Shown here one piece after another: positions 17,127 through 51,789 of a stretch of DNA of 64,000 nucleotides (position 1 is the first letter of the stretch; every line of letters starts with the position of its first letter). Origin of the DNA: Loxodes magnus (lineage: Eukaryota > Ciliophora > Karyorelictea > Loxodida > Loxodidae); NCBI GenBank assembly GCA_946699065.1, contig CAMPDV010000046.1, positions 558,001 through 622,000 on the forward strand, given 5' to 3'. Under the pieces are notes generated by a model, which was not told the origin of the DNA, ran no database searches, and saw only the letters and a list, made by a program, of their open reading frames with translations. Position numbers and translations under genes: made by a program.

Positions 17127-20100
17127 TCAAAAGGTTTAAAGCTAATTACTTTCGCCTGTTCTATTACTACAAAACTTTGTGTTTATTAAGTAGTTGTCAA
17201 TCTTGTCAAGGCATTACTTTATGTTTGTTTCCATTGCTAGCATTTCATTTTGAAAATTGATAAACAAGAAGTCTAAGGTTCCATAGGAATATAGGCAATC
17301 TGAGATTCCATCGTAATTAATCTATATCAATAATTACACTTTGCTTCTATAAATATCTCCCTGAATAAAATTCTATTTAGACCTTTTGGTATTCTGATAA
17401 TTGCACGTTTGTAACTATAAACTCTTACATAATAAAAACTTAAAGTAGACTTGCAAACACCTTAAGATTCAATATCTGCTTCTCGTTTAGTTGAATATTA
17501 TATTACATTTCCGCGTTAAGAATGACATACTCAATTAACTACTTCTTCAGTATATAAAAAGCAAGCAGCATTTAAGAAACCTTTCTATGAATAAAATAAA
17601 TTACTTATTTTCTTACAAATTGACTAAGCTATTTGATCTATATGCTTCATAAGGAGAAAGTTATTTTTAGATACTCTGAACATTACCTGAAATATACACA
17701 AGTTTTAAATAGCCTTTCAAACTTTCAGGTATTTCTTCTATCGCTTAACTCATTTTACTAAATAAATTTTCCATTTCTTCTAATAAGATTTTAACTTAAT
17801 TTTCCTCTTTCTTTTTAATATGCTATTTAGAGAGTAATTTATAGATCGATTGGTTATTTCTTCCAAACTATGGCTCAGCTAATTAACCCGAAGTTTGTCT
17901 CTTGTAACTTAAGTAATTTTTTGCATCAAGCTGTTCTGAATTATCATATGAAGGTTCAGTTTCTAGTCACTGTTTAGTTTTATCGTTTATTACAAAATTT
18001 AGATCAACGTTGTGGTCAATTAGCCTTTAAAAAGATGACTGGAAAATTTATTTTAATCACTTTTAAGTTATGATAGACATTTTTAAATTCATTGTTTCCA
18101 TTAATTAACCATTTTATTAAGCAAGCTTAACAATCTCCTCAAAATGAAGGTAAAATCTAGGATTTTCACGAAAGTTTTAAGCATAGAAGCTGTCTATTTC
18201 TTCTTTATTTTAAAGATGGTTTTCTTGTTGAAAAATTTCTTCCTCCATTTCATCTTAGTCATCGTTTTATTCTAGCGTTTCACTTAATTCTTCAATATCT
18301 TCACTACTATTTTCTATCTTATTACCTACTTCAATTTTATTGAGGAAGTACCTCTGAAAAATCTGTTGAAAAAATTTCTTAAAGTGAGAGTAATAATCAA
18401 CATTTTATAAGCTCTTTTTATTTTTATTGTGTAGAGTTCTTTTTCTTTATATTGTATGCTAACTTTTAATTATCTCATTTTTATTTTAGTTTTTGTTAGA
18501 CTATTCTTCTTCGTTATAATCAAGCCTTGCGAATTCAAGAGGTTTCTTTTTAAATTACTTTTTTGTAAGTGAAAAGGATTGTCTTTAGATATGCGAGGGT
18601 TTTATTTAATTATATTCATTTACATTATTATGCAGTTCTTAGCTTTCTGTTTGAGATTTTTTAATTATTAACTTTTAATCAAATTGACTTAATGTTTTTT
18701 TATGTTAGTTAAGGTTTTCTTGAAATTTTTATTTATCTTCTTCTATTTAAACTTGTTCATTGTGCTGAATTTACTTGCTTTATATATTACTGCTTACTTA
18801 ATTAGTTTTCTTTGTTTAAGAAACCTTATATCAATTATTATTCAGCTATTTTACTTTTTACGTATTTTAGAATTCTGAAAATCATTATTTTTCTTCATTT
18901 TATTTAGACTTCTAGATTTTACTTATCATTTTCTTATTTTTTTGTATGTTATTTCTACTAAATGGAGATAAACTTCTACTTTCTTCCTAATTAGGAGTTT
19001 TGAAACCCTGCTAGAAAAATTTATCCACTTTTTGTTGGTCTACATTTTAGTTTATTTAATACCTTTAGTTTTCATAAATATTTGGAAATTTATCTACACT
19101 TTCTTGGTATAATATTTCTGATTCTTAGGTTAAGGTTATATAATGACTTTTATTTAAATCAATTATAGACTTATCATTATCTTGCTCAATGTATTATGGT
19201 ATCTAAAGAAAAGATTTTGAGAGTTTATTAGATTTATTTCTTTCAAGCTATAGTTTGTTTTCTTTAGTTAAAATTTAAGTTTCTACCTCCTATGTTTGCT
19301 TTTAAACCTTAATTTAAATTTAATTAGTTAACTTGGAAGTCTAATCCTTATATTTTTTTTTAGAATGGCTTAAGTTGCTTTCAATTTTATTTTTGCTTTG
19401 CTTTTACTTCTTTTGTTCATTTAATTATTACTCTCGTAACTTAATTGGAGTTTTACACTGAATAGATTCTATAGATTCGATAGTATCAGCATTTTCATTA
19501 ACTATCTAATTGTTTTTCTTTGATTTATAAGTACAATTTTGGGCTTTTTTTGTAGATTTGATTTGGTTTCTTTTGATTTGTGTTTCAATGAAGAATGAAC
19601 TTGCCTCTTAACTATCGTCAGATTCTTTCGTTTAGCTTTATATGTTTAAGAAATCAAAACTCTTATTTATATCCAAGTCTTTTGAGGAATCTTTCTCCTT
19701 TCGGCCTTAATTAATACTTTTAGTTAAATTAAAATTGTTCAAAAGATTTCTACCCTGCTAATTTATTTACTTTTGGTAATTCTTACTGATTCTCTTTTTA
19801 CTTGGTGAAAAGTTAAACTGAGAAGAGTATTATTAACTCCCATAATCTGTAGATTCATTCTAATTATGAAGTAAATACTACTAACTCTACTAAAACTTCA
19901 TAGAAGGAAGCAAATTCTACAACTCCGCTATGTTTGTTGCCTCTCTAGGTATATTTACTTTATTTCCTCTTATTTCTTTAACTTAAGTTTATAATCCTCT
20001 AGATTTACTTTAATTTAAGTCAGATTTCTTCTAAAACTCCTTTTTTAAGCAGCTCTGCTTATTCTTTGCTACTAGTACTTACTTTTTTGGTTTAAAGAAA

Positions 20101-20171
20101 GAGTTTTTAAGTTCGTTTTTTATAGAATGGTTATATTCTAACTGACTTATTTCGTTTTAATGAATTTGCAT
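17127..20171 (-). CDS. Paralog family member 1, 1002 aa, unknown function
   Basis: First of three related genes in this window (others at 20603-23874 and 49391-51789). About 750 residues are Lys/Asn/Gln/Ser-rich and probably disordered. The last 250 form the conserved part: IPESLKGYLK, an LSPYEAYR segment, VSQMLLAFYILKKQLIEY, NLKVFASLLQVFI, then NYDGISDCLYSYGTLDF and a short variable tail. Two introns restore the frame: 17585-17604 (20 nt) and 17322-17337 (16 nt). The second lies, in phase 0, two residues before the NYDGIS motif, as in both paralogs. The order of helices vaguely recalls the later half of a Ras-GAP domain, without its key Arg or FLR motif, so I make no functional claim. Stop TGA 17127-17129. 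The start is the only in-frame ATG near the 5' limit, and an upstream exon is possible. Confidence 0.78.
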
Positions 20172-20602
20172 TTAATTTTTTGCCTATTTTAAAATTAAAT
20201 TTCCATTAGATTTGTTGTAATACTATCAAGATGAAGTCTATACTAAAACCTAAAATACCTTCAAATCATTTCTATTCACATAACTTTAAAACAAAACACT
20301 TTCTTGTCTTTTACTATGCTATCTCCTTTCTTATTATCCTTCTATTTTAAACTACTATTCTTTAATTTTTAGTGTTGCTATGATTATAATTTACAAAATA
20401 ATGACTTTAATAATGTGATATAATAAAGAGCTTATAATAGTTCGTAGTGCTTCTAATAAATGATAATATATTATAAGATTGATATGAAAAGTACATATTA
20501 AATCATATAAATGTAGCTAGTGCAATGGCCATATAAGCATATTTCTTATTTAAAGCTTATTGTAGAATACTGTTTAATATGATTTATTAATATACAATCA
20601 AA
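20172..20602. other. Spacer between tandem paralogs 1 and 2
   Basis: About 430 bp of AT-rich sequence between the 5' end of paralog 1 and the 3' end of paralog 2. The paralog 1 frame stays open upstream for about 80 codons but has no ATG, so a short 5' exon cannot be excluded. Confidence 0.5.
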
Positions 20603-23600
20603 TCATTTATGCAGTCCTAATTTTATTACTAATCCATTTGAATTTACATTTTTATTTTGACCATAGTTTAAACACTTCTTTAGAGAGCTTTCCAAATTAT
20701 CCTGCCTTTTCTAGATTATTGCTTATGCAAACTTCTGAATTTTCTATTTTATTTTAAATACTTTCTAGTCGTTATTGTCTAAAACAGTATCTAAGCATTG
20801 GATTGGATACAGTAAATGAGATATTCCGTCAAAATTTAACTTTATAAAATACTTACATCTTCCTTGTGCTGATATTTCCCTTTATAAAAGTCACTCTGAA
20901 TTTTATTGAAGTTAATGAAAGAAATTTCTTTAGGCAAGTAGATTTGTAAAAGGATAATCTATAAGATACTAGCAAATATTCTAAGGTTTTTAGTTTAGAT
21001 TGAGTTAAAATCCTCCTTCAAATACTTTTTATACTTAACGCATAATTTTTCGTTAATTTATTTCGAAATGAAGTAGAAAGATATGAGCATTTCCATATTT
21101 TATCTATATATTAAGTGTTACTTTTATTCCGAGTGCTTTTTTGATATTCTTAACCTCTCAAAAGGACTAATAAAGTGCCAATATGTGTTTGTAAAATCAT
21201 TTTTGAACCCTCTATTTACAAACTCTATAACAGTTTCTGGAATTAAGTCAATCTTTTATATCATCTCTTATATTAGTTTTTCGATTATTTCTAGCAAAAC
21301 TTAGTCTAATTATACTGATTTTACTTGATTTTCTTGAGCATTTGCTTGCTAGTTATTTGAGTTAATTAATTTATCTATTTGTGTAGATGCAGTGTTATCA
21401 GTAATGCTATTACTAAGATTTTAAGATAGATTGTTCAAAGAAATACTAATAGTATTCATCTTAAAAAATGCAGATATTTGCTCATTATTTATTATTAGAT
21501 CACTTAAATTTAGATTTCTTTCTGTTAAAGTTTCCAGACAAACTTATTAGAAAATCTCTTTTATCCATACTTATACTTTTATTCCTTGACTTTTGAAGAA
21601 CTTTTAATATAACTGAGTATTAACTTGGGATATTTTGACAGCATCTCCGAAGTAGTCAATTAAATCTCCATTTTTTATTACGTTATTTTTGTCTAATTAA
21701 TATTAAATTTTTTCTTAGCTATTTAAATATCTCCTAGCTGATTTTGCTTGAATCTTGGCTTGCTTAGCCCCTTCTAATTTTAATAAATTTGTATTTAGAT
21801 TTTCGTTTTTATCGTATTTCAAGATTTAATTAGTTGATTGATTCTCACTATCTATACTTTTCTTATCTATTTTGTCTTTAAAATAAATTTTATTAAAGGT
21901 CTAATGTAACTTTCTTAGCAACTTCGTTTCTGTTTCGTCTCCTTTACTTCCATTATCTTACTATTACTCGTTTTTTAATTGAATATTTTCCTAAGATCTA
22001 GATTTAAGTTTTTGAATTTATGACTTGACCTGCCGAATTAGATTACCTATGCCTTTTCTTAATTTTTTCTATATTTTCTATTGATTTGGTGTCAATAAAT
22101 TATCCTAATATTACTCTTAATCTATTTGGCCATTGATAGTTTACTCTCTCTAGATTTAAATCATAGGAGTATATATTTGCTTAATCTATTAATTTTATAC
22201 GTAGCTTAAATTTATTTTTCTAAATTTTTTCTTTATTTGCTTTTTCTTATTCATATCATCTTCATTATCTGAAGTGTTTAATTCTTAATCCTATTAAATA
22301 GATAAGTTGTTTAATACTTAATTATAGGACTCATTTAAGCGTTAATCTATTTTCTTACTTCCTCTTCTTGCTGCTTTTTATGTAACTTGACATGTATTAT
22401 TCTATTTCTAAAGAGCCTATGAAGTTTATTGATCTGGGAAAGCTTGCTTTTACTATGGCAGTTAATTTTAGTTTTTATTAGAAATATAATAAATCTCAGA
22501 AGGAACTTAGTAAAAATGTTAAACGCTTTTATTATGTTGGATTAGCTTATCTATTTTATTAGTATTAACTTTGAAATTTACATAATCCTGCAAATCTTCT
22601 AACTCTATTTTTTGCTTATATTTCTTATTTAAATCCTTACTATTGTTTTAAGGAGAATGTACTCCATATTATCTTTCTAAGGATGTGCTTTCTTTAATAC
22701 GTGATTCCTTTTAACCCCTGTCCCTTAGTTATACAACACTTTTATTTCATTCAACTTAATGATTATTCTAGTTATTTTATGAAGATAAAAGTTGATTAAT
22801 CTTTATATTTTTTGGCTTTTCTACCTGGAATTAATATAAATCATACTTTGAATCATTGTTAAAATTAGTTTTATATGCATGTTGATGTTCTTAGTTATTC
22901 GGCTTAATCATAGACTTATTTTTATTCACTTAATCACTGAATTCTGATTTATTTAAGTGTTCATTATGTGATAACTAACTCATTACTATCTTATTAGATT
23001 TTTTAATCTTTTGCTAGTTTTTCATTTACTGGATTTTGGTTAGATTTTTTTTGTATTAAAGACTGAAGTCCTAAGCTTTTTATATTTGATTATTTTCTAT
23101 TCCTTCACTAGTATAATGATGTACTGATGTTTCTGTATTTTCTCTCTCCATATCAATTGAAATGTTTTAATCTAAAAAATTTAATTTGGAATTTTAGATT
23201 TATTTTGGTTTTGTTTTTTCCTTAAATTTAGTTTTTTCCCACAAATTTTTTTCTGAATAAGGAGGAAAAATAACTTCAGGTAAAAAAGTTTCCTTAGGAC
23301 TTTGATAATTTAAAGGTTTTGTTTAATTAATTAGCTTCGCTTTTGTTTGAGTTTTATCTTCACTTTAGTTTGCTTAAATATGTCCTAATTAAATTTAATA
23401 ATTGAAGTCAAAACTTTTATTAACTACATTTTAGTTGGTTTGAGATTAGGTTTTTAATTAGTTTCCAATTAATTATTTAGCTGATTTTTGCTTACTCATT
23501 AAGTCTTTATTACTCTACATTTATTTCTGTATTTCTTAGTTCTTTATTATGATATTGCTTTTAGGTTTATTTTGCTCCAAATTATGGCTTTAGTTTTATA

Positions 23601-23874
23601 AATTAAAATTAGATTAGTTTTTAGATACTCTCCTATTTTATATTTTTTTAAGTTCTTTCTCCATTTCTAAACTTTCAAAGAAATAAGGAGGTTTTGCCTC
23701 CTAAGCATCATAATAACATTTTAGTTATAATAGCTATTCATCGAACTCTGAACATCTATTTTCACCATGTCTTCGATTGAAAAATTTATTTTTAAGGTTT
23801 TTCTTCTATTTGACTTAAAAAGGATCACTTATAATGATGGTTTTTATTTTAAAATCATTGCTTCTTTACACCAT
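20603..23874 (-). CDS. Paralog family member 2, 1084 aa, unknown function
   Basis: Tandem relative of the gene at 17127-20171. The long N-terminal part is Asn/Gln/Lys-rich with short Pro-containing islands (EAKPPYFFES near 23700, PEVIFPPYSEK near 23260), which might be ligand motifs. A more regular region follows from about residue 700 (IDYFGDAVKISQ, FFKSQGIKVQ, VWIKEIFQ). The conserved C-terminal part reads IPETVIEFVNRG, FISPFERLR, MEMLISFYFISKQINEK, NLRIFASILQIILLQIY, KIQSDFYKGKYQ, and after a 17-nt intron (20840-20856) NFDGISHLLYPIQCLD. That intron is in phase 0 at the same place as in the other two paralogs. The second intron of paralog 1 is absent here. Stop TGA 20603-20605. One internal TGA (about 22747) is read as Trp. 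The ATG at 23872-23874 is chosen; the frame stays open further upstream. Confidence 0.8.
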
Positions 23875-24329
23875 ATTTATTTAAAAATAACTTAGGAGGA
23901 AATACTTAATAACATTATCATTAATTATTATTTATCTCTTACAAATTAGATTATACATCATATTGCTATACAAGTATTTCTACTCTTATAAACGTCTTGT
24001 TTCTTTACCTCCTATTTACTTATTTAAGCCTGGTTAGAGTTTATAGCTATTTTTTTACTTTAGCTATACAAATATAAATTAGTTAAGTTGGATTTTATTG
24101 TATGTCTGCTATAATATCTAATACGTTTTTAAAAGTAGTGATTATTAGTTAAATTGTATGCTTTTTTGTTTTGGACTAATTTTTATTAATTTACTAAAAT
24201 AATCAGACTTTTAAATTTTTATCAATATAATACCTTGTTTTTTGATATTTTTCTTATTTAATCTATAATAGAAATATCTTAAAGAAGCATAAAATGATAA
24301 ATTAAATATCCAAAATTAATTATTTCAAG

Positions 24330-24928
24330 ATGCTTAGTTGCTTTTTCTAACTTCATTTCAAAATCTTACTAGCTTACATTTTCTTTAGACTGTTTAAGTT
24401 TCTCATGCTAGATTAATTAAAAGAGGCATCTAAAGAGCAAATGTTTTTCTAATAATAAACTTAGAGATGTATTAACTTTCTTAACCTTATTTTAGCTTTA
24501 TTTCTAAGTAGATTGATACTAGTTAAAAGTATTCTGCTTTCTAAGCTTTGTACCTTTATTTGTAAATACTTAGTAACTATTAAGAAAGTCTATTAAATAA
24601 TGCATGCTACTTTATCTTTGGCTTAAATAAAATAATATTGGTATTTAGCTTAAGGGGATTATTAGTGAATATTGTCTTAGTTCTTTAAAATCTTAATCTA
24701 TTGATTGCTGCAAGATTCTTTTTATTTACATTGCTTTTGGAGTTTATGTCCTTTTCTGCTTATCGTTTGAAAAGAAAGAGCCAAGTTAAGTATTAGTCTT
24801 CAGTAAATAATAGATAGCAATTAATTGAAATAGAGCTACAAACTTAATGTAGATAAACGGAAAATCTAAAGGATTGTTTAGATAATATACAGAAATAGCT
24901 AAAATCTAAATATCCAAGTAAAGAGTGA
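24330..24928 (+). CDS. Possible BAP31-like membrane/coiled-coil protein (exons unresolved)
   Basis: Two overlapping-phase + frames look coding. 24330-24668 encodes hydrophobic segments and a Gln-rich loop (MFFQQQTQRCINF then LALFLSRLILVKSIL), which resembles the third membrane segment of BAP31-type ER proteins. The second frame ends in TGA at 24926-24928. It has a hydrophobic stretch, a KRK basic cluster and a coiled-coil-like tail (LIEIELQTQ...NLKDCLDNIQKQLK). Joining them needs an intron of length 3n+2. A 17-nt GTA...AG candidate starts at about 24522, but other solutions exist. First membrane segments, if any, would lie before 24330. Treat as a tentative locus, not a solved gene. Confidence 0.28.
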
Positions 24929-27900
24929 TAGTTGATAATAAAGATTATTTACCTTTGCTATTATTTCTGAAGATACAAGATTAGTTACATTTAATATTCT
25001 ACTTCATACTAAAGAAAAGAAATAAGCATTATTATTAAAGTCTACTAGTAACAAAATTAAAGATAAAAATAAGACAAAAGAACAATGAAACTTAGTAAAA
25101 TATTAAATATCTATATAGTAAATTTAAAGCAAATCGAATCAATGTAATTTAGCTTTTCCTTATAAAGTATTTAAAATTAACAATCAGTCCCTCACTTAAA
25201 TTGGCAAAAGAAAGGTATGAGATATAAAACTTATATAAACTAATTCCTTTTATTATATAGAATAAAATAAACAATGCTGTAAAATTAATAAAAATAGAAC
25301 TTTGCTATTAATTCTTAATTGTAAAGTAGCTTTTGAGCTAATTATTATAAAAAATTATATTTCATCTAATATAAAAAGCCATTTCCTCATTCCATTACCA
25401 AACAGAGTTCTTAAATGCAATATTAGATTTAAATGGTTAACTAATAGGCTATTTAATAAATAATGCTTGCGTTTCCTTATATTTTAAGAATTTCTTTAGT
25501 TAGTAATTATTTATCTTTGATGGCTTATTTCATTTTATTTATAAAGGCAAATTCTTTTAAATATAAAATTATAATTAGCGATTCTTTCTTAGACTAATAT
25601 TACCCTAATCTCATTTAAAAACTCTAGCTAACCTCACAAATAAAAGAAAAATTATGCAGTAAATTGAATTAAAAGAGCATATTTGTTACTTTACCTAAGA
25701 GTACTGATTTTAATAATCCAGAGCTCTTATCTGGCAAATCTACTCTTAAAAAATGTGAAGTACGTCTTTATTCCCTCTTTTAGAATTATCTTTTCCATTT
25801 AACTTTATAAAAATAGCAAATTTTGTAATTTGAGTTAGATCTCTAAATTAGTCACTATTTAAAGGACTAAAAATACATTTGAATAGCAATATCTAAGAAT
25901 GAGGCTATCTTTCCTTAATCTTAGAATTCTAGCAAATAAATGGAAAGTAAATTATAAGTCTATTTAAATAATTATATATCTATCTACAATCTTCTCCTTC
26001 TGTTATTTCTTCCTAATCTAAACTGCTTAGTTCAGTCTTATTTTAGTTAGTGCAAATCGTTTTTTAGGGAATGTATTTAAATAGACTGACTGATTATTAA
26101 ACTCTCTAATGAAACAAAAATTCTAATATTTTCATAAAGTTAGCTACAATCAATGGATACAAAAAATGTAAATTCAAATAGCAAATACTAGTAACTAGAA
26201 TTACCACTGAGCTAATAACTCAACTATAGAAAGCGTAAGAAACTTCTACGCTTAAAAGAAATATTCCACTATAAATTTATAAAAACTACTTAAAGAAAGC
26301 TTTAGTTAATGCTTATCTACTAAACATCAAGCATCTATAAATACTAAGGAAGTAAACTATTAGTTCTACTCACCCTATGAAACTAGATAATTTACATATA
26401 GTTATCTAATAAAGTGAATAAATATACATAAACTTACCTACCTTCTATATAATTTTAAATAGTAGTTAGTATTATATCTAAAAAATAATATTTTACGTTT
26501 AAAAAGCTTTTTCACACAATAACGTAGAATGTATAAAACAATTAAGGAACTTAAAATTTAATAACGCTTCATTTATAGTAATACACTTATAAAAATAGCC
26601 AAAGTAACTTGCTATATTAAAACTAGTAAGATAAAATAAAATAAGGATATAGTTAGAAATTATAAGGCTTTAGTAACTTAAATTTAGAAATAAAACATCA
26701 AATTCCAAGATTTTTAAGAATAGGCTACTATGTAATTTCGTGATAATAACGTTGTATTCAAAGTTAAAATATAAGAGTAAAAAATGAATGAACACATAAA
26801 TTAAAAATGCTCAATGTGAGAAATAGAGGAAATTAAGCGTATAAGACATTGGAAAATTCGAATGCTATCTTTAGATTGTTTTATAAATCTCTCTCTATCA
26901 GAATCTTTCTACCTAAAATACAAAAGAAAAAAAATTAAATACTTAAAGCAGATTTTTAAACTATTAGAGAGAAAATAATAAGAAATGCATACTTATAAGC
27001 ATGTTTCTTAAAGCCAAAGAAGCATATTTATATTAGTTATTTAACTAATAATTTTTGGTTTTTCCATAGAGAATATGATATAAAGCTTCTGTGCATAAAG
27101 TACTTCTTAATGTAACTTATTTAATTCCTTCAAAATTACTAATTAACTTAAATATTAGCACTTTTCTTTCATATCTCTTAATCTAAAAATAGCTTACTTA
27201 TAGAATACTTACTTCAAAGGTATGTAAATACCTTACTAATAATTTAAAACATAGTTATGAATAAAAATATTTAAAAGTTTTTAAAACTGCGAGATATAAA
27301 TTAAACAATAATAAATATGAATAGCTATTAATATAAAAGAACGTTAGCACTTTAAATTATAAATTTAAACTATTAGATTCAAAACATTTTTCATTGATTT
27401 AAGCTTAATTCCCATAACGCATAGTTAAAACTTTTAAATTAAGTAAAAAACTAAAAGTTTAAATTGAATAGATTTATTAATTAGTTTAACAGTTTTATTA
27501 TCTTTTATATTCTCCCTTTTTCTACTTAATAGTTTATTGACTTAAGTTAATTTTAGAAATTAGTTTGATTTAATTTCTTGTATAAGCTCTAGAGTACCTA
27601 GTCTTTTTATCTTATATCATTTCTATGTATTCTTTATAACTAGTATACCTGAACTTTAAATTTGAAACTTATAAGAAGATATTATATGGTAAAACAATAG
27701 CTTCACTAGCATGTTGGGAGAACTAATAAAGTAAAGCTATAGAGTGATTCTGTGGTAAAGACTTGAAAATCACATAATTTATATTTCTTATTTACTTTTA
27801 AACAGAACTATCTATTTAATTAAGCTAAGCCTTTATAACTTATTTCTAGCTTGTATATCAACACTAATACAGTTATAACTTCTTTTTTACTTGTATATGC

Positions 27901-38057: not shown

Positions 38058-39464
38058 TCAATATGTTAAAGAAGAAATATGCTTGATTAAGGTTTAAATC
38101 TAACTTTTAAGTGTATAAAATTAAATTTTTAATTTGCTACTTAGAATTGAAATAAAATTATCAAAAGAGGAGAATAGAATAATTATTGCTTATATTGCTT
38201 TCAAATTCTTAAAGTATGATTTTGGTAAAAAAACTTATATATTAAATCTCAAATTGTCAGCATACTCTTGGGATTTTAATTGTTTTTCTTTTGCTTTCAA
38301 CCATTGTTGGCTTCCTATATTAGGACCAATTCCTCCTAGCTTTATATTCTACTATTATTAAACTTTATAATCTTCAAGTGTATATTTCTTATATTTAATA
38401 GGTCTATGCTTTTTTCCAAAAAATATGTTTCTATCAGTTTCTAAAATTTGTTCTATATCTTTGGATTTATCTAATTTTTTAGGCTTTGTTGAAAGTGAAA
38501 TTCCTTTTCTTAATTATTTGATTTCTTTTTCTCTTTTATGTTATGAATTTTCTTTTTCCTTTACTTTTTACTTGCTTTTCGGAGTTTCTTTTTCTTTTAT
38601 CTTTTACTAGCTTTTATCTATATCTTTTTCCTTCCTAATTACATTGTCAATTTTAATATTTCTATTGGCTCTTATTTTCAAAGTATTTTGCTTTTGGATA
38701 GCTTATTCAAGCAAATTATTTTAAGCCATATTTCTTTGCATTTGAGTAGTGAGTTGCTATTAATTCTAGAGCATTTTTTAAAGTTAGCCAATCATATCCT
38801 AAAAGTTCCTCATTTAGTCAAGTTATTGTCCCTATACTTCATTGATCTATTTTTACAGTAGTTTGTGCTAATAATTCTTATTTTTGCTCTACTCTAATTT
38901 TTCTTACTGCTATATCTGCTACTGCTAAATCTATGAGGATAGTAATAATTGAATGGTACTGTTTATATTGTTGTTGTCGTTTTAAAAAGGTTGAAAATAG
39001 GAGCTTTACTGATATTAGGTATATGCTCGTTAGTTGTTTCATTGAGATTAATATTGATTGGAATTTTGACTTCTATATTAGTGACTTGGTAAGTAGGATC
39101 TATAATCATGTTTTTACTATTCTTACATGAACTAACTTAGTGGGGTTTATTTAAATAAAGAATCAGGAGTTGCAATAGAGCCTGTTTGAACTCCTGACGG
39201 TAAAATTTCCATTTATGGTAAAGGCAAAATAAGTTCTTTGTTAGTAAATTCTTGCTCATATTAAACTGGAGGTAAGGGTGCTGCTAATTAGCTGTTATCA
39301 AAGGATTGAAATTAGTTTTTAGGTAAATTTTCTTAAAAAGAGAAGTTAACATTATTAGTATCTTTATTAACAGGGACCAAGTTTTCAGTGTTAAAGTTGC
39401 CAGTTCTTGTAATTTTTTCTGATCTATTTCTAAATCTTCTTTCAAATTTACTTTTACTTTTCAT
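38058..39464 (-). CDS. JHY-like protein 1, about 468 aa
   Basis: The C-terminal block YTLEDYK ... KLGGIGPNIG ... QWLKAKEKQLKSQEYADNLR matches the closing motif of JHY-type (juvenile hydrocephalus) proteins, which are linked to motile cilia. The preceding 350 residues are Gln/Asn/Lys-rich with a coiled-coil stretch (near 38700-38880). The N-terminus begins with a basic KSKSKFERRFRNR segment. One Trp is TGA (near 39050). The start is ATG 39462-39464. The frame stays open about 60 codons past the conserved motif, to TGA 38058-38060. That tail is hydrophobic and unlike the rest, so the true end may be earlier through an intron. A shorter relative lies at 45216-45980. Confidence 0.75.
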
Positions 39465-40293
39465 TTATATTCAAATAAATAATCATACATAATAGCATCA
39501 TTAGGCAAGCAATTTAAGTTACTTTATATTAACCTTAATAACTACGATTCAACCTCCAATTAACCTTAGAGTTTACTAATTTCTTTTAATTCTTGATTTT
39601 TTATAAAGTAGAGACTACTTAACTAATCTCTTAAGATGTATCATTAATTATAATATAAGCAATTCTTTTCTCATAAGAAATACTACTAATAAATCTATCT
39701 CTCTTAGTATTCTAGGTTTACTCAATTCAAGTGACTTTAATATTAAAGAGTTTCATAATTTGCTTAAATAGATAATTAAAGTTCACAGCTAAACTTATAT
39801 TGCTAATCTATCTTAACTTTATAATTATTATACTGATACCAATTATAACTACCAAATATAACTTCTGTTCATTTATTTGCTTTAATATTTAAAAGCTTTT
39901 ATTATTTAAATACTTAGAAATCAAGTTTATTTGAATGTTCTTATTAATGCTTTAGATTAATACTCTTGCTTACTATAAGCAATGAATATGGAGAGTTCCA
40001 TTGAGGGATTTACTCATCATATCTCAATAAATTTACTCTTTTAAAGCAAAATAATATTAGTATTAGTATTAACCTAGCAAATACATATTACATATCATGC
40101 CTCTATTTATTCTCTTCGTTTAAATCTTAATCATTATATTAGACAGTAGCCATGTAAAGTTATTTAAAAGTTGCGAAGCGTTTACTATGAAAATAAGGTA
40201 ATAAGAGAATAGAAGGGTAGAAGAAAGATAGAGGCTAAATAAGGAATTTACTTTAATTTAAGATAGCTAGTGATAAGCTTCCTTCCTTTAAAA
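39465..40293. other. Intergenic, divergent 5' ends
   Basis: About 830 bp between the starts of JHY-like 1 (-) and the CHAT/NB-ARC gene (+). It probably contains both promoters. No gene or repeat seen. Confidence 0.5.
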
Positions 40294-43200
40294 ATGTCAT
40301 CTATTTAAATCTAATTTCTAAAGGATCTTCTTCAACACTGCGACACTCTTACTTTAGACCAACTTATTAATTCTGCTTCAAATCTTTCCTCTCCTCTTAC
40401 AATCGAGTAATAAGCAATGGCTTAAGAACTTGAGTAATTAAAGCTTAAAAAGCAGTAATTGAAAGATTAGCTAAATAGCCAAGAGGGAAGCTTATAGTAA
40501 GGGAATATAAAGCTTTCTAGATTTTAAGTTGCTAATAACCCTTAATAGAGGTAAAGTATTAGACTTGAAGAAATAGACTTGCTTGTCATTTTTAGTAGCC
40601 CTTTATACGTAGATTTCGTAGTAAAAGGCAAATCTTAAATGTTGCCCTTAGAATTGCTACCTGTAACTGAAATAAGAGACTCAATTATATAAACTTTATA
40701 GAAGACTGATAAAGTAGTTAAATATAAGTTTATATCTGCCTAATTTGACAGAATACTTAAAAACCTAACCAGCCAGCCTTTAGGAATATAATTCACTTTA
40801 CATGGAGAATAACCTTTTGTTGATAAAATTGCTTTTCTAGATTACTTAGGAAGGGCAGAAGTGATAGACATACCACGCTTTAAGCGTCTTTTATCTGATT
40901 TAGTACAATATGCTCCTGAGTTTATTGTATTAACTAGCTGTCATTCTGAAGAAATAGCAAATATGTTTCTACAGTAGCATGATCAATTTCCAGGTGCTGA
41001 TCATGTAATCTATATAAAATCTAGTCCAAATCCATAGAAAACAGAAGCTGATTATGAGAATATCATTAGCTTTCTGGAAATCCTTTATTTCAAGTTCTTT
41101 TCTAACAAAGATAGTATTTGTGATGCCTTTACTTCTACTTTGAAAGAAATGGATAAATCATTAGGATAAAAGAAGCAAAGCTTTAAGATACTTGTAAAAG
41201 AGTAGTATTGCTCATGCTGTCTGCTAAACTCTGATTAAGGAAAGGCGATTAATCTAACTGTTCCACCAAAGTTTATGAAGCTACCTGATGCTCCTTTAAA
41301 AGCGGTTTGTAGATAGGATGACATATTTAAAATTATAGAAAGTATCAATAATAATAGAGTAGTAACTATCAAAGGAGCCCCTGGAATAGGTAAATCCACT
41401 TTATTAAAGATTTTATGCTACTATCAAATTGAGTAAGATGATAGAGAAAATGTCAAAGATGGAATTTTATACAATAACTGCAGCGGACTTGTGAATGCAG
41501 AAAGTCTCCTTAACAGAGTCCAGATGATCTTAAAGTAGAATAAATCTTCAAAGGTTTCTTTGGTATTTGCCCTTTCTTAAGTATAGGAGATTTTTTCATT
41601 TATGATAATAACAAAAATAGCAGAAATGATTGGAGATAACTATACTCTATTAGTTCTTGATAACATTGAAGATATTTTCTTAAATGACCCCTCCACTCTT
41701 AAGCATACTCTTTACTTTCTTCTATCAGAATGTCAGCATCTTCGTATATTGATTAGTTCACAATGTCCTATAGGAAACTTGCTTGACTATAAAGAATACG
41801 TATATGAATTAGCTACTTTGCATACCAAGTTTGGAAGTAAACTCTTAGAAAACAAATTAGCTTAATTAAATATTTCCTGAAAAAGCAATGATATCACTAA
41901 GTTTCTTGTAAACATGAAGAAGAAGGGGATTATTATAGAAAAGGCAGCTGATTATCTACAACCTTTTGTTGAGTTACTTTAAGGACATCCCTAATCAATT
42001 GCTGTATTTGCTCCATTTATGAAGAATAAAAAATTAGAAGCTATTTATGAAGAACTGGCTTAAAAACTGGAATCAGGGGGAAGAGAAGATTAAGTACTAT
42101 AAGCTATTTCCTAGTGCTTAAATATTAGCTTAACAAGTCTTAACTAAATAAATCCAGAAGCTTAAAGGTTTTTCAGTATTTTTGGGCTATTAAAATAGGA
42201 AGCGACAATAGAACTTTTAGAAGCTATTTGAGAGTCTCCTTGTGAGCATTTAGTAATCATGCTACTGTAGTCTTCTTTGATTGCTTAAAAGAAATCAGGA
42301 AATAAAGTACTTTATTATGCTTATCCTTGCATATAACTATATGCTGACAAAATTCTTACAATCGAAGATACCAAAAAATTTATAGGAAGAATCTCAAAAT
42401 TCCTTCTAGTAATTCTGCAGAATCTTATTTCTACTTATGACACAAAAGATTGAAATGAAAAGCAATTTAGCGAAATCTAAAGATTTGAAGCTAATATTGA
42501 CTGCTGTCTTGCTAAAAGAATTGATAAACTATAACATAAGGAAAACAAGAAGAAGGTTAACTTACTTAGTCAATATATCAGAAGTAACTTTACTCATTTT
42601 ATCTAACAGCGTCTCATATAATAAGCAAAGAAATCTTTATTATCAAAAGCAATAGCAAAGCAAAAAAATTAAGAGTAAGAATAAGGAGCAAAATAAGAGT
42701 AGAGGCTATAAACTTGGACGTAGTTTGAAGATATAGCTCATTAACATTCTAACATGAAGCAAAACAGAAAGATCTTTACCTCTTTTATTAAGAAAGCAGC
42801 CAACGTTCAGTAAGTAAAAATTAAAAGCAATCTTGGAAAATCTTTGATAAGATAGCATGCAAATATGATGCATGCATTATGCAAAATGGGAATTTTCCAG
42901 TCTTATCTTCTACTAATAAAAAAGCGAATAGATAAAGCAAGTACTACTATTTTTCAAACTCTTAATTTAGCAGAGTTTTTCTAAGACAAAGCAACTACTG
43001 CTATCATAACCTTCTTACAAAAGTATTTAAGCTTTGAATGCATAAAAGATACCAAGACTAAAGATAAAGAAATCACTATGGAGAAATTAATCGATGATTT
43101 GCAATAGTTAATTACAGTCTTCTAAAAAGAAAATATCACTATTGGTTAGGCTAATTGCTTTTTATTGCTTAGTCAAATTAATTTCAGGATGTTTCAAAGA

Positions 43201-43485
43201 GCTTTTGACGAAAGTGAGGGCTAATAACTGCTTAACTAATGTAAAAATAATTTACTTTAAGCCTGCGAAATTTATAAATAATAATACCATAACTACGCTG
43301 TTGCTGTTTGCCTTAACTAGATTATTGTAGTTAACGCAGAACTAAAGGTTGAAGAAGTAGGATTAGCTGAAGAACTTGAGAAATATAAAAATTAGGAAAC
43401 AAAACTAAGTTTCTGGTATAACAGGAAAGTATTGTCTCAATTATCAGTAGATAATGTGTTTTTGCAGCTTCCAATAGAACTCTGA
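40294..43485 (+). CDS. CHAT-like protease plus NB-ARC NTPase (NLR-like), 1063 aa
   Basis: A STAND-type protein. Residues 1-90 are helical and Gln-rich. Residues about 95-300 follow the CHAT (caspase-family) fold: DLLVIFSSPL strand, LPLELLPV, then the catalytic pair His170 in FTLHGEQ and Cys216 in IVLTSCHSEEIA, and VIYIKSS with a final helical segment. The NTPase has Walker A GAPGIGKST (361-369), Walker B TLLVLDNIED (Asp456), an arm RILISSQ, and GHPQSIAVFA (564-573) at the NB-ARC GLPL position. The C-terminal 300 residues are helical with TPR-like spacing. Such proteins oligomerise on a trigger and activate the protease domain. The trigger and substrate are unknown here. It is a single exon, with TGA as Trp at about 41878, 42229 and 42450, stop TGA 43483-43485. 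Domain calls are by motif, not by search. Confidence 0.82.
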
Positions 43486-45215
43486 ATTTCATCTTTTTAG
43501 ACTTTCTTTTTAATAAAAATTATTATCTTCTTTAACATCACAATCTTCTATGTTTAATTAACTAAAACTGGATAAAAAGTCTCATAATAATTATAGCAAA
43601 TCTACTAATTTAACCACTTATACAGAAGAAAAATGAAATCATATCAGTTTGGAGCTAAAAAACATAAAAGAAACAAATTGTCAAAATACTTTCAACATGC
43701 GAAATAATAAGATTTATAATTTAATACCTTTAATTCAAGTTTTTAAAATCAACTTAACTTTCATTTTAGAGATTAGTGACCTAAGTATAAAATACAAACT
43801 ATCAATAAGATTTTTTAAAATAACTGATGTAAAAATAATGAAAACAATTTACTTAGACACTTAATTATTATTCTTCAAATACTAATAACCTTCGATAAGT
43901 TTTTAAATCACAAAAATTATAAAGGAAATATAGAAAAAATATGAGAAAGTTAATTTATAAATATTTTTAAGTGAATACTTTTATATATTAAATAACCAAA
44001 CTTATTAGAAAATAAGTAAAATTTTACTTACAATAGCTTTTGATTTTGTTATTAATATTTTATCAAATATTTAAAAAGAATAGAAACTATGATAAAGTTA
44101 AATTCTCAAACTTAATAGCCTTTATTACTTTTTAGCCTTTTTAACTTTAAAAAGTTTATATATTTATTATTTTGAACTTATGGTACTTTTAGTTTGACAT
44201 CATTATTAATTATTAATTTTAAAATCTTAAAATATTGCCTTTTAACTGATTAAATGAATAATTAACTTAATTTCTATTTGAGCATGTCTTTAATAAAACG
44301 GTTATCTAGCTCCAATTATATTTTTTGGTATGCTGACTGCTTAGTATTTAAATTAGTTATATTATTAATAATTTTTAGCAATTCTGATTTAAATAGATTT
44401 ATATATGAAATAATTGCTTTACATTCATTTATTCTTGTTAATTTACTATGTTTTTTGCTTCTAAAAGTGATTTTTAGCTTAATGAGTATCTAAGTTTTTA
44501 ATCTTAATCTATTTAATATGACTTTAACTTAAGAAATGATATTTATTGTATAATTATAATTTATTGTCAGCAGATATTTTATAGTGCTATTTCTAAGAAC
44601 TCTCAGATTTAAATACCTAAGTTTAATAAATCTACCACTTTTTTGCTTTTTTATTTTAATTCAAAAAGCATCAAAATAATATTTGACTAGCCATTCTATT
44701 TTATGTTTTCTAACAGATATTTAGTTATGTTTCGCATATAATTAGCCTATAATGCTAATTAATTAGCAACTGTACATTTATTGTATTAAGCTTATAAGAT
44801 AAGAAAGGTTATTTTTCTAATTAGCACTATTTACTTTTATAGAATTATTTCATTGCGTTGCTTTCATTTCTATGCACTCTAATAAATTCATCACTATTTT
44901 ATTTATTTTGGTAGCCTTGCTTATATCAACCCAAAAAGAAATATATAGTTTAAGTTTAAAGGATCTAATCAGATAAATTAGCTATAAGATAAGAGGATCC
45001 AAACTCTAATAGTTAAAAAATGAATATTTGTTAATGAAAGAGGAGAAGCTAAGTATATGATTATTAAGTATTATTTAAATAATTACATTAGGACTAACTA
45101 TAATATTAATAGTAAGCTTAGTTAGTTTAAATTACTGATAGTTATTAAATACTAAGAATGTATTTAAAACTTAACATTAAACAAGGTTAGAATTATCTGC
45201 TGAAATTACAATTAA
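43486..45215. other. Intergenic, AT-rich
   Basis: About 1.7 kb between convergent 3' ends (CHAT/NB-ARC + and JHY-like 2 -). The sequence is among the most AT-rich of the window. Short open frames are present but none looks coding. Confidence 0.5.
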
Positions 45216-45980
45216 TCATTCTTCAGTTAGCACTACCTTTCTCTATAAGTTCATCTTTCCTTGCATTTCTAAGTACTTTTATATATTTTTCATCCTTACT
45301 TGCTTGGAAAATTCTTTTTCATGATTTCTTTTAATCATTGACTCCTTTCAATTTTCGCTTCCAATAGTCACAGGTCCTAATCCTCCTATTTTAGATTTTT
45401 TATTTTTTATTTACTGATAATCTTTATATAAATAGGGTTCAAATTCAATTTATCTTGGCTTTTTAGAAAGTTCTCTGGTAAATTAAGGCTTCATGTTTTA
45501 GACAGATTAATCATGCTTATATAACTAAACCCTTTAATTTTATCCTTTGCTTTCTTTAATTATGAAGCCATGCTTCGAGTGCTTTAATACTAATGGCTCT
45601 TAAGAATCTTTCGGTATTTGAAAATACATCCTCGAGTCAAATTCTAAGGAGTGCAGTTTTTTAGAATGAAGAGTAATATTTTCAGCTTTATTTAAAATTT
45701 CAGCTTTACTTGAGTTTTTAGTTCCAAAAAATTCTAAGTTATCATACGACTGAGTTAGTGAATAAGTTTAGCCTTTCTTAAATACTGAGTTCTATTAATT
45801 TTAGTGATCTTAGCCATAATGAAGCTAATTTTTATCCATAATTATATTTTAAGCTGTTACCTTTATAGGACTTATTGCTGATGCTTTATTAACAGGAGTC
45901 AGACATTCAAGGTTATCAATTCCAAATTTGGATATTTTCTGGTTTCTATTTTGGAATCTATTTTTAAAAGAGAGCGTCAT
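45216..45980 (-). CDS. JHY-like protein 2, 254 aa
   Basis: Shorter relative of the gene at 38058-39464. It keeps the C-terminal block: PYLYKDYQ ... KIGGLGPVTIGSENW ... SMIKRNHEKEFSKQVR, followed by a short basic tail. The N-terminus starts with a similar basic pattern (SFKNRFQNRNQKI) and both proteins share a T/V-P-V-N-K segment about 35 residues in, so homology probably spans the whole protein. The Trp of SENW is TGA. The stop is TGA 45216-45218, and no intron is needed. The coiled-coil centre of the longer copy is missing. The function is presumably ciliary, by analogy. Confidence 0.72.
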
Positions 45981-46263
45981 TTTAAATTCGGTTATCAATA
46001 TCTAATCTAATTAGTTTATATTATATAAGGATCCTCTCTTTGCTACAACTGTTATACTTACAATACTTAAAATGCTATTTCAAAATAAGCTAAGCGATAT
46101 AATATTTATAGTCTACTGTAAAAAAGATATAATGCTAAGCAGATCTTACACTGAATAGGCTTTTTATTATATTTAGAAAGAAACTTACTTAATCTTACCA
46201 GCATTATCCTTTATAACCTAATAAGAACTAAATAAAGCCACTATCTGTTGCTAAATGCATTTC

Positions 46264-47118
46264 ATGGTAATTTTGAGCATAACATATCTTTTACTAATTA
46301 AATGTCTTAAGTATTCAGATTAGAAAGAAATCAGGCCATTTAATTAGCATAATAGTGAGAAATTTATAAAGCATTAATATTATGGCAGTAAAGTTAAAGC
46401 AATGATGTATATTGATGACAATGATTAACTCTATAGTTGTTCTATTGAATTAATAAGTAGAATAAACATATTTATAGACTAAAGAAAGTCAGACTAATTA
46501 GTAACTTTTTACTTTTTTGATCTTTATAAAGCTTAAGTTTTTAATTAAAGATGCTTAAGAGTAGCTAAATGATAAATCATGAAATTAGATAGTAAGCATG
46601 AAAAAGAAAAGTATGGTATATTAAATAGAAATGACTTAATTTCAAAATTATAATTACAAATAAAGAAATGTAAAGTAGCTATACTTATAAAGGAAACCGA
46701 AATAAAATAAATAGCTCTCATAAAATTACAAGATATAGGGTTAAAGCATAATAACTATTATATAAATGTAAATAGATTTTGCAAAATAAATAAAGTTGAC
46801 TAATTTGCCTAATTATTTTAATATTAATAGGATATTTCTCTTATATAAGAGAGCTTATTATTTTTATATTTTGATGATGCTAAAATATTAGATGAAATAA
46901 TATAAGTACCATTGAAAGAATTGCTCACTTGCTTAGATTAGAAGTTTTAAGATAATTAAAAAGTAATTACATAAGCATGTTAATAACATTATTTACTTGT
47001 TCAATTTGTAAATCCGTAAAAGGAAGGGAGAATTACTTTATATACTATATTTCTAAAGGTTGATAATACTTTAAATTTCCTTTTTTTAGTTTCTCGCTTA
47101 GACTTAAAAACTCACTGA
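46264..47118 (+). CDS. Hypothetical protein, up to 284 aa
   Basis: Open frame that needs one TGA read as Trp (46570-46572). Without that it would split into proteins of 102 and about 175 aa. The N-terminus is hydrophobic (ILSITYLLLIK), perhaps a signal or anchor, but ATG is followed directly by GTAATT, so a start-adjacent intron as in the ARL3 gene is possible. The rest is mixed with coherent helical stretches (DLISKLQLQIKKCK, DEIIQVPLKELLTCLDQ). The last 194 bp overlap the 3' end of the TPR gene on the other strand, so at least one of the two ends is wrong. No family recognised. Confidence 0.38.
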
Positions 47119-48241
47119 GTGATCCTAATAAAATATCTTTATATTGTCTTTCTAAAGTAGTTAAGTTTGGTAATTGATACTAGTTTTAATCCTATTTCTC
47201 AAGAGTCTCAATAATATACAACAAAATATTGCTTAATTCATCATTTCCAAGAATTATAGCCCTTTCTTATGCCTTTTTATAATTTGGGAAATATAAATAG
47301 TCTTCACCAATAGCTGCCATATTTAATTAAAGTGCTTACTTAGTAGATTCTATCTCAGCTAGTTGATAGAAAATTTTGCCTCTCGAGATATAATTATATT
47401 TAACGCATTTCAAAGACTTATTATAGCATTCTCTAGCCTTATTAAGTTCTCTTTCATTTAAATAAATATTTCCAAGGTTATAGAAAGCGTCTCCATTTTA
47501 CTGCTGCTCTAAAATTTCTTCATATATTTACTTAGCATTATCTATCTGCTTCATTTGGGTATATGTTAGTGCTTAAAAGAATCTAGATTCATATGAATTT
47601 GGATTAAAGCAGTAAGCTTCTTAATAAATATATAGAGCCTACAATGGTAGATCTAATCATTATCTACACATATGTCCTAACTCCAATAATACTTAGCTTA
47701 TATTTTCATCTGCCTATTAGAGAAATAAAGGAATAGGATCTTCACTGCTATTGTTAAGCTAAGCTATTAAGTTTTATCTTCAATTTTCATCATTAAACTG
47801 ACTAATCAAATTCTTTAGAACAGGATCCTGCTGAACATTTTAGTCATTAATAAATACTTTAAGCTTTGCATAGATTTAAGCATTTTTATTTATGCAGAAC
47901 AATGTATCTGCTAAGCATAATTTATGCTATGTGCTCCCATGCGCCACATAAGCAAGCAATGCTAGTGCTATACTTAGATAATCAGCAGCTTAAGGAATAA
48001 AGTTTTTGTTTATATAGCATAAAGCAAGCAAATGACATTTATTAGCTAGTTCTGCGAGCATTCTCTCTTGAAGCGATTTATAAGTTTTCTTGATGACAAT
48101 TTCTTTTAGCATATCAATACTGACAGTCTTAATAAGTTCCTTTTAATTACTTGGCTAACTTATAGGAGGTAATTCATTTTAAAATACTTAATTGTGCTAT
48201 TTTAGTGTCTTTTTCTTGTTTTTAGAAAGACACTTACCCAT
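46925..48241 (-). CDS. N-myristoylated TPR protein, 438 aa
   Basis: TPR repeats are visible in the second half, e.g. the block around DAFYNLGNIYLNERELNKARECYNKSL with the W/L-G-A-F-A-P-like spacing, preceded by ESRFFQALTYTQMKQIDNAKQIYEEIL. The N-terminus MGKCLSKNKKK is a near-ideal signal for myristoylation (Gly2, Ser6) with a palmitoylatable Cys4, so the protein is probably membrane-tethered in the cytosol. TGA is Trp near 47790 and 47672. The stop at 46925-46927 follows about 60 codons beyond the region of confident helices. It overlaps the + ORF at 46264-47118. The start abuts the DHHC frame: the ATG is part of its last visible codons, and an alternative spliced fusion is discussed in the findings. 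Confidence 0.78.
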
Positions 48242-48780
48242 TTATTTAAAAATTTCCCTTTAAATATTTATTAATTAAGAGCTAATAAAAGGATGTATAC
48301 CAAATTGCAAAAGCAAGATATGACAAACCAGTTGAAATATCCTAAATTTTTCTTTCCTATACATTTTCCTGTTATTCAACAATGATGGTCAAAATTCTCA
48401 ATACACAGATTACATTCCTTGCAATGTCTTGAACGTTAAATCACATATACCATACATTTCTAGCAAATTACACTCTTATCGTATGTTTCTATGTTTCGTT
48501 CAGAGTGTTAGAGTATACCAGGATTTATTAAAGAAGTAATGGAAAAGCTAATACAAAAGGAAAATAGTATTATCCAGCCTAGGATTTCTGGTAGTATATT
48601 ATTAAGATTTTATATAATTATAACATCAACCAGAACAAATAAAATTAGCACACATAGAAAGTATTAATACTATGGACCAAGAGTTAATAAAGGAACTCCA
48701 GATTTATTAAAGAAAAATCCATAGCAGTTTCCAATCATTCCAACTTTCTTGTTCTCATCCCCAAATGTTTAGTATTTCAT
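48241..48780 (-). CDS. DHHC-type S-acyltransferase, 3' end unresolved, about 180 aa
   Basis: Integral membrane enzyme that transfers palmitate to Cys of proteins. The Cys-rich domain is complete: CQKC, RSRHCKECNLC, then FDHHC followed by W-I-T-G-K-CIGKKN. The residue after DHHC is TGA (Trp) where most enzymes have Pro. Two membrane segments precede it (FLCVLILFVLVDVIII and LGWIILFSFCISFSI) with the lumenal NPG turn, and one follows (YFNWFVISCFCNLVYILLLAL). The usual fourth segment is not visible. ATG 48778-48780 begins a normal short N-terminus. The frame has no stop before it runs into the TPR gene, so an intron must change the frame. A 19-nt GTA...TAG candidate begins just after CNL. Either the gene is short or it continues into the TPR protein. 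Confidence 0.8.
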
Positions 48781-49390
48781 ATTATCTTTTATGGATAATT
48801 GATTAAATATAAAATCTTATCTATCTATATTAATTATTCTATTTCAGAGCACTTTTATATTATAAGTCTCTTTATATTTTAACTACTTCTTTAAGAAAAG
48901 CAAGTAAAGATATCCTTATTAGCTCTAAAAATAATCGTCTTTACTGACTTGTATATTGTATTTTATTGTAACTTAGCTTATCCACTCTAATGAGAAGCAG
49001 TAAAGCTTTACAAATTAGAAAGGAAATCTACTAGAATTATAAAAGGAAGAATGTAAAGCATATATAAATATAATTGAAATTATACCTAGTAATTAAAGAA
49101 TTGATAGTTAAGCCAATTAAAATAGCCTTGCATATAAGCAATTTGATAATAGTGGTTTAGTAAAGAGACAGTTAATTATTAGCTACTAAAACTAAAGTTG
49201 CAAATAGTATTAAAATAGTATCACATTTATACAGTCTCTTGCATATTACTTCTTTTAGCTGAAATTAAAACACGTATTATTTTATTCCTTTTGGTTATAT
49301 TCTCAAGTAAGTAGTTTATAATAAATAGAGATATTTAAGTAGTTAGTTAAATGATTAAATGAAAGGGTTTTGTTGAATTAGTAAATTAAA
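48781..49390. other. Intergenic, divergent 5' ends
   Basis: About 610 bp between the starts of the DHHC gene (-) and paralog 3 (+). AT-rich, probably both promoters, nothing else recognised. Confidence 0.5.
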
Positions 49391-51789
49391 ATGTAGATAA
49401 AGATAGATAAAGTGTCAGCTTTCTTAAAAGTGAAAGGTAAGAAAGTAAAGTAGACTCTGAAAGGTAAAAAGAACAGACTTAAAAGTAATATCAGTTATTG
49501 TTCTCTCCCTAATATTAGTAACATTAAAATCAATCCACTTAACTTCGCTAGTATAATTAACACCAATTAGCAAAAATCCATAAACAAGGACTATGGCATT
49601 AAGTAGCTCAATAATTCTGGTTTTTTCAATTAGAAAAGTAAAAGCATATAAGATAACTATATTACTAATATGATGGATATGTATTAGAAAGATTTAGATG
49701 AAAAAGGGGATAATCCCTATTGCTTAAATCTTTAAAAAAGTAATTTAGAAAACTCTTTATAGAATATCTATCTTTCACATAATTAAACTCTTCTAGAGTC
49801 TAATGTTGGGAAAAAACATTTAAGCAGAAGTGTTTAAAAGTTAAGGCCAATCTAAAGCACTCCTTTAAGTAAAATAGATCTAAAAACTAAACTTGTTAGC
49901 TATAAAAAATTTAATACCAAAGTAAAAGCTTTAGATTAAAATTTAGATTATCAATAGTGAGAAGATAAAAAGAAATTAGCAAAATCTGACTATAAAAAAT
50001 AATGATTCAATGTTATGAACACAATTTTGTGACCGTGTTCAAATATAGGTCAGCCAAAAAAAAATAAAGAAGTTAAATTAACTTTGCTAAAGTTCAACCA
50101 AAAAGATCAATAATAAAATATACAGAAAATAAAGAATAAGTAATCATATCTTACAACAGTTATAAAGCAGATAGAGCAGAAAATGCATGTAAAATAGAAT
50201 GCTAAACAAAAAAATTTTTCCTTTATTAAGTAATTATCTTTCTTTGAGGATGATTCAACAAGTACAACTATACAGAATAAAATAAAACTTGCTTTTTTAG
50301 GGAAGTTGAACAAATAAAATACATAAGAACTTTAAAAGAACTAAGAAGTTAAGTAATAAGAAAATAATAACGAAAATCTAGTGAATAAAATGTGAAATCG
50401 AAATAGTTTGAAAAAGAACTTCAACTAATAGAAATAGAAGGATTCAATACTTTATTTAGATCAATAGACTAAGTTTTTTTAATTATTAACTGGCACATTA
50501 CCTCCATGTAAAGAAGAGTAAGAATAAGAATCTAGTGAAAGAAAATAGGAGATGGAATAATAAAACCAGTAATTATAATAGAAACTAGACGATTCATAAT
50601 AATTAGATAAGACTACTAAAGATTAAGGAGAAAACTTAGTAGACGAAATAAAGCGAACAGATCAGAAAATATAAGAAAGACTTTAAAAAAAACTTCAAAA
50701 ATAGAAATCTAATGGAGATGTTATTGCAGATATAAAAAACCTTCTATTTCCAGAAACTGAAATTAAAGTGGATGAAACCTTTGAATAAACAATAAAATAT
50801 TGCTAATACTGGGAGATAGCAGATTGCTATTTTTTTCATCAAGAAATAGCTATAAAATGGATTTTCACTACGTTTAAGTAATTCGTTGTAAAGAACATAG
50901 AAGATTAAAGTCTAAATTTAAAACTATTGCTAGTATCTAGCTAATAAAAATTGAAAAATGATTTAGCAATAATTAAGAATTTTATAATGAAGGTTAAAGA
51001 ATAAGAGTAGATGAACAAATTAAGAGAAATGCTAGTTTCTTTCTTATAAAACTTTATTAACTCAGTTCAAAGTATGCCTCCTTCTTTGCTATACTTCTTC
51101 TAGTATTTTTTGAAAATAAAAAATATTAATAAAGGCTTAATTACATAGTATGAGATAAAGCGAATCAAAAAGTTTAACAATGTTTAAGTTGTGCTTGATG
51201 ATGAAATGTAGAAGATGCTGTTGATATTTTTCATGATTACAAACCTTTTTATAGGAAAAATAAGCTTGGAATAGTAGTGAAATGTTGATAAGCTGAATTT
51301 AAAAAATAATAACATTGCATTTAACATTAAAACATTTGCTAGTGCTTTACAGATTTTAATCATTTGAACTTTCAAGTTAGCTGGAAGAAATCAAAGTGAA
51401 TCTATTAGTATTTTAGAAGATATAAAGTCAAACAATTACTAGAAAAGTTATAGTGTAAGCTAATAATTCAGAATAATTTCGATGGTGTTTCTGACAAATT
51501 GTACTCTTACTAGCAATTATCGAATTTCATAAATTAAGAAGAATTATGGAATTATCTTTAAGATTTGTTGCTATTGCTTGGTGAAAGCATACTAAATGAA
51601 AGTAGAAACTTCTATAAGAACTATACAAATTTTGAATATTATTAATGTAATTTTTTTATAAATATTATCCTCTTGATTGTTTTCAGTAAAGTTTTAGATT
51701 ATTTTTAAATTTACAGAAATGTGTCATTATAAACTTATAATTTTCCCTTTCCTATAAAAGCTATAGCCTTAACTAGCATGTAAATATGA
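49391..51789 (+). CDS. Paralog family member 3, about 793 aa, unknown function
   Basis: Third member of the family found in tandem at 17127-23874, here on the other strand about 25.5 kb from the nearest copy. It has a disordered Lys/Asn/Gln/Ser-rich N-terminus, then from about residue 470 regular helical sequence (YWEIADCYFFHQEIAIKWIF), SMPPSLLYFFQYF, KMLLIFFMITNLFIGK, FNIKTFASALQILII, and after a 17-nt phase-0 intron (51455-51471) NNFDGVSDKLYSYQQL. The intron site is the same as in paralogs 1 and 2. Six internal TGA are read as Trp, more than in the other two. The second codon is TAG (Gln). The frame remains open to TGA 51787-51789, but the last 50 residues are Ile/Phe/Tyr-rich and may not be real coding sequence. 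Confidence 0.78.

Follow-up and report, generated by a model that had tools for sequence, protein, structure and literature searches.

A large Loxodes magnus gene family with a predicted, divergent RasGAP-fold domain that lacks the arginine finger

Three genes (genes 1, 2, and 3) in a 64,000-nucleotide stretch of the Loxodes magnus genome (the window; contig C46, positions 558,001-622,000) end in a similar C-terminal block, and the question raised by this locus is which fold the block adopts and whether it could still act on small GTPases. On the basis of the profile and the predicted fold of relatives, carried over to the window by homology, the block is predicted to be a divergent domain of the RasGAP (Ras GTPase-activating protein) fold. 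The genes belong to a large, divergent, finger-less family that merits a name but has a known fold, and we regard the assignment of the family domain to the RasGAP fold as very nearly certain.

The genes were read with NCBI table 27 (TAA and TAG as Gln; TGA as Trp or stop); the long genes of the window are open only under this code, and table 11 yielded no open reading frame of 150 amino acids (aa). The three models close exactly at the ends proposed by a first-pass annotation of the window. Using BLASTP, genes 1 and 2 aligned over 312 aa (28% identity, E 7e-25) and genes 1 and 3 over 177 aa (30% identity, E 1e-11), and the direct match between genes 2 and 3 was weak (E 0.027). A family hidden Markov model (HMM) built from 43 rows without window sequences gave 127, 150, and 168 bits for genes 1, 2, and 3, respectively, compared with a top score of -50 for 900 shuffled versions. 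In all three genes, a phase-0 intron (intron B; 16, 17, and 17 nt) stands before the N[FY]DG motif at one common alignment column. The N-termini are long and diverged, as had been claimed, and are Q/N/K-rich, with no significant similarity in pairwise comparisons (best E 0.35); those of genes 1 and 2 have an NKSFDF string in common and nothing further in the N-terminal comparison. Scanning all of the window with a profile revealed no fourth member, the next best score being 3.2 bits. We conclude that genes 1-3 are a true paralogous family with a conserved intron. The observation made in the first-pass annotation is confirmed, and its interpretation, that of a three-member family without a described counterpart, is partly supported.

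Pfam and PDB sequence searches with genes 1-3 alone returned chance-level matches, none of them credible, and the order of motifs in the block (a helix that closes with IPxxL, next a hydrophobic one, and then NLxxFASxLQ) pointed to RasGAP. Three family rows matched five RasGAP sequences with E 0.025 in the expected register; none of 400 column shuffles did as well, and 3 of 400 block shuffles did. Under either of two settings, none of 60 block shuffles attained the profile score against RasGAP; these early small-profile and shuffle tests were suggestive only. At least three intronless relatives of the window genes exceed the PF00616 cut-off of 28.3 bits (L055, 30.8; L036, 30.7; L059, 30.1), covering profile positions 39-204 of 207. 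When the genome was searched with PF00616, eight matches were obtained at E<=10: four correspond to exons from a pair of ordinary RasGAP genes, and L055 and L056, which account for two of the remaining four, belong to the family. Scanned singly, 14 of 45 family rows matched RasGAP at E<=1, as did 4 of the 10 family proteins rescanned at E<=0.1. The 45-row family profile aligned with seven RasGAPs (five PDB sequences and two Loxodes genes with their exon pieces joined) over 163 columns with E 1.8e-5, and a four-row profile of the gene 3 type reached E 0.0052. The structural prediction agrees: the model of L055, a relative and not a window gene, had a pLDDT of 92, and every chain in Foldseek ranks 1-18 and VIA rows 1-20 was of the RasGAP fold, which bears out the earlier suggestion that helical GAP folds be compared. 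The statement that no described family carries this signature held for genes 1-3, which have no credible direct match, and failed for L055, L036, and L059; the strong match to a known family, named beforehand as the result that would refute the statement, was found through these relatives (PF00616 cut-off and predicted fold) and not with the window genes.

Several results weigh against this assignment. PF00616 was not matched by genes 1-3, either in the long reading or as the spliced domain; six of the ten rescanned family proteins did not match RasGAP at E<=0.1; full-length L055 (720 aa) had no RasGAP match; and a search of PDB sequences with the A3 family profile returned no chain of a RasGAP at E<=10. 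The 45-row profile gave E 0.0093 with the five PDB RasGAPs alone, and smaller profiles gave 0.057 (33 mixed rows), 0.28 (gene 1 type), and 0.11 (gene 2 type). The first AF2 model, made from window rows only (exons of genes 1-3), lacked depth and had a pLDDT of 40. Finally, L043 exceeded the Pfam cut-off for the unrelated Alpha_kinase (1.3e-5), most likely a composition artefact, and Pfam scores on such composition are therefore to be taken with caution.

As judged by sequence, the family lacks both features of catalytic RasGAPs that were tested, namely the arginine finger and the FLR motif. In contrast to p120GAP/RASA1, neurofibromin, and SynGAP, Arg occupies the finger position in 1 of 44 family rows (a further point of weakness, this position being mapped by ungapped sequence offset and not by superposed coordinates), and within residues 3-19 of A3 no single position shows Arg in more than two rows. 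Arg is lacking at the FLR position in 41 of 45 rows (Lys in 37; the remaining 4 rows have Arg), and the PAI part of the motif is absent. Near-invariant residues are W30 (43/45), R136 of the FExxR stretch (43/45), N188 (45/45), Q197 (44/45), and D235 of the DG[IV]S motif (41/41). Unlike the catalytic RasGAPs, the window proteins carry no further known domain in the Pfam scan.

Two ordinary RasGAP genes were found in the same genome, at C5:53.3-54.2 kb (L051/L053) and C46:834.9-835.8 kb (L052/L054), the latter on the contig of the window and 213 kb past the window's end. Like the top members of the family, both exceed the PF00616 cut-off. Their segment FFIFQNWLxPA[IV]IFPE[KQ]FG[IL] falls between FLRxxxPAI and the FFxxSKxLIxKICLxP of the family; they retain the PAI-FPE segment, whereas the large family has lost it. 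Both have IFNESVSTLSSK at the expected finger motif, with no Arg apparent. Ten RasGEF (Ras guanine nucleotide exchange factor) matches lie above the cut-off in this genome, so Ras-type regulation is probably present in Loxodes.

How large is the family? In the assembly searched (705.73 Mb, 7,843 contigs), the gene 2 domain gave 104 matches at E<=1 and the distant member L055 gave 138 at E<=0.01. The merged searches, from which the seven weakest of the gene 2 rows were left out, comprise 211 family loci (159 on contigs C1-C999), a lower bound in which assembly duplicates are also counted; the family is far from the three members first proposed. Dense arrays occur on C271 (16 loci), C14 (11), and C454 (8). 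Three small contigs (C1836, C1899, and C3354; L022-L024) carry one family member at one coordinate and are therefore taken as assembly redundancy or haplotigs. C426, C547, and C1471 carry six near-identical copies (L011-L016); six pairs of these were compared and are 94-98% identical in protein, with ratios of nonsynonymous to synonymous substitution (dN/dS) of 0.15-0.30. No paper on a Loxodes RasGAP family was found, judged by titles and abstract openings; the word "RasGAP" is not found in the main text of PMC11441545, nor "ciliate" in PMC6304743.

In a 77-row tree (midpoint-rooted for drawing; L006, L019, L021-L024, L031, L034, and L037 excluded), gene 1 groups with L044-L049 (support 100/98) and gene 2 with L002 (support 100/100; 57% identity); gene 3 falls in the opposite half, also well supported, on a long branch (1.72) whose point of attachment is unsure. 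Because the three genes fall apart in the tree, the window holds three old lineages and not a recent tandem triplet. Intron history was examined in a sample reduced from 49 rows to 40 at 85% identity and then to 33 (genes 1-3 and 30 loci). Seven badly spliced or truncated rows (L006, L009, L019, L021, L031, L034, and L037) were removed by eye, L030 was not spliceable, and L001, L003, and L008 duplicate the window or another locus. Among the 30 non-redundant loci modelled, intron B was found in 27 and intron A (phase 2, before QNIQML) in 23, counts that are minima since the splice finder (GTA...AG, 15-31 nt, gain of 6 bits) may miss in-frame introns; L036, L042, and L043 have neither. Intron A, thought at first to be peculiar to gene 1, is present in L002, the nearest relative of gene 2, so it was lost from gene 2 and not gained in gene 1. 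Gene 3 retains intron B; the other sampled members of its half of the tree are without it.

These results are consistent with a mechanism that we think probable as a whole, by analogy with IQGAP: a divergent RasGAP-fold domain in a greatly expanded family would act as a GTPase-binding effector or scaffold. Its helical groove would still bind a Ras- or Rho-type small GTPase; with no arginine finger and mostly Lys in place of the FLR arginine, the domain would not accelerate GTP hydrolysis in the usual way. Binding without the usual catalysis would let each protein serve a GTPase as effector or scaffold, as proposed for IQGAP, and the variable N-terminus may determine its location or partners. 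We rate this mechanism below the fold because, according to PMC9408373, the IQGAP GRD binds CDC42 with very low affinity whatever the nucleotide, and restoring Arg at its finger position produced no GAP activity; both results weaken the argument by analogy. Compared with the GRD of IQGAP1 and IQGAP2, the Loxodes family is without the NPAI motif, has Lys in place of the FLR arginine, and has a conserved FExxR stretch, a DG[IV]SxxLY motif, and a large copy number. In addition, CH, IQ, and RGCT, which we take to be the domains beside the IQGAP GRD, are not listed for the window proteins (Pfam, E<=10). It is a more tentative idea, which we think somewhat less likely than not, that a RasGAP fold without the finger gave rise in Loxodes to well over a hundred adaptors that read a GTPase, with diverse N-termini connecting a single GTPase switch to many sites or cues. 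If true, inactive GAPs would form a signalling layer far outnumbering the active regulators found (two ordinary RasGAPs, ten RasGEF matches). The direct Pfam scan gave this family of a karyorelict ciliate no name; it can now be read as probably made up of pseudo-GAPs, and its members far outnumber the ordinary RasGAPs found alongside them. The family would offer a natural variant set for how a GAP fold evolves after loss of catalysis and would name Ras/Rho-type GTPases as the candidate partner class for well over a hundred loci.

Other functions of the same fold were weighed against this mechanism. The domain could be an active GAP with another catalytic residue, such as the Arg of FExxR or the Lys that replaces the FLR arginine; R136 is nearly invariant, K161 is Lys or Arg in 41 of 45 rows, and, as noted in PMC9408373, catalysis by GAPs of other Ras-superfamily members relies on residues other than arginine. 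We consider this unlikely: R136 lies in a segment that the RasGAPs compared do not have. The finger Arg is also absent from both ordinary Loxodes RasGAPs, which counts against an active family and means that the lineage may use no finger at all. The fold could instead have been reused beyond small GTPases, for example in protein-protein scaffolding, with GTPase binding lost. Loss of the finger and of the PAI part agrees with this, as does the fact that W30, E133, R136, and D235 are among the most conserved residues and yet are not RasGAP residues. The nearest analogue in function, the IQGAP GRD, binds CDC42 weakly and regardless of nucleotide (PMC9408373), which fits as well. Ras-type regulators are nevertheless present in the genome. 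Moreover, the P-x-x-L and NLxxxAxxLQ helices, presumably near the GTPase-binding face of known complexes, stay among the best conserved parts, and on balance we find reuse without GTPase binding somewhat improbable.

The fold and the status of the loci as genes were also questioned. By eye, the block resembles VPS9/Rabex-5, and gene 3 alone matched VPS9 (E 0.063) slightly better than RasGAP (E 0.19), as if the RasGAP match were coincidental and the block a VPS9, cyclin, or unknown helical bundle. The VPS9 (Rab5 GEF) domain was rejected: family-level E values were 0.19-0.74 (0.69 for 45 rows), the profile score was within the range of shuffles (reached by 53/60 and 27/60 at two settings), and VPS9 is not among the Pfam matches of genes 1-3. 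Cyclin is absent among the VIA matches listed, no comparison aimed at cyclin having been made. A different helical domain is strongly disfavoured and, in our estimate, barely credible. The dense arrays and near-identical copies, together with the repeat-rich nature of the Loxodes genome (PMC11441545), might suggest a mobile or decaying repeat in place of functional genes. Against this, dN/dS was 0.13-0.43 in 17 pairs of recent copies (20 pairs tried, several having a member in common, with three older pairs saturated), which points to purifying selection as far as sequence comparison can indicate it. Intron positions and phases are conserved, 36 of 36 further loci from the L055 search (picked for long matches) read the domain in one frame with no frameshift, and the Pfam scan found no mobile-element domain in the three window proteins. 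A repeat origin is accordingly very improbable, and the RasGAP-fold gene family is retained as the preferred explanation.

Features of the three genes are listed below. The predicted introns are 16-20 nt long; for intron A of gene 1, an alternative of 32 nt that starts earlier also keeps the frame. The published macronuclear assembly of L. magnus is described in PMC11441545 as 706 Mb, with code 27 and a modal intron of 17 nt.

Table 1. Positions within the window of the three family genes, their domains (family HMM without window rows), and their introns (predicted from sequence).
Feature	Position	Strand	Details
Gene 1	17127..20171	-	1002 aa, three exons; stop TGA 17129-17127
Gene 1 predicted RasGAP-fold domain	17199..18143	-	aa 677-979, both introns inside
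Gene 1 intron A	17585..17604	-	20 nt, phase 2
Gene 1 intron B	17322..17337	-	16 nt, phase 0, directly before INYDGIS
Gene 2	20603..23874	-	1084 aa, two exons
Gene 2 predicted RasGAP-fold domain	20702..21642	-	aa 745-1052
Gene 2 intron B	20840..20856	-	17 nt, phase 0, directly before LNFDGIS
Gene 3	49391..51789	+	793 aa, two exons
Gene 3 predicted RasGAP-fold domain	50774..51609	+	aa 462-734
Gene 3 intron B	51455..51471	+	17 nt, phase 0, directly before NNFDGVS

Elsewhere in the window, an Arf-type GTPase gene lies at 2341-3708 on the + strand (PF00025, E 3.3e-57, the match covering residues 144-283 of the stretch read). The gene at 12954-13850 on the - strand, with Fer2_3 (E 1.2e-27) and Fer4 matches, is presumably succinate dehydrogenase iron-sulphur subunit-like. 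A large open frame at 39310-41880 on the + strand has a C-terminal P-loop of the STAND/NACHT type (nSTAND3, E 2.2e-7).

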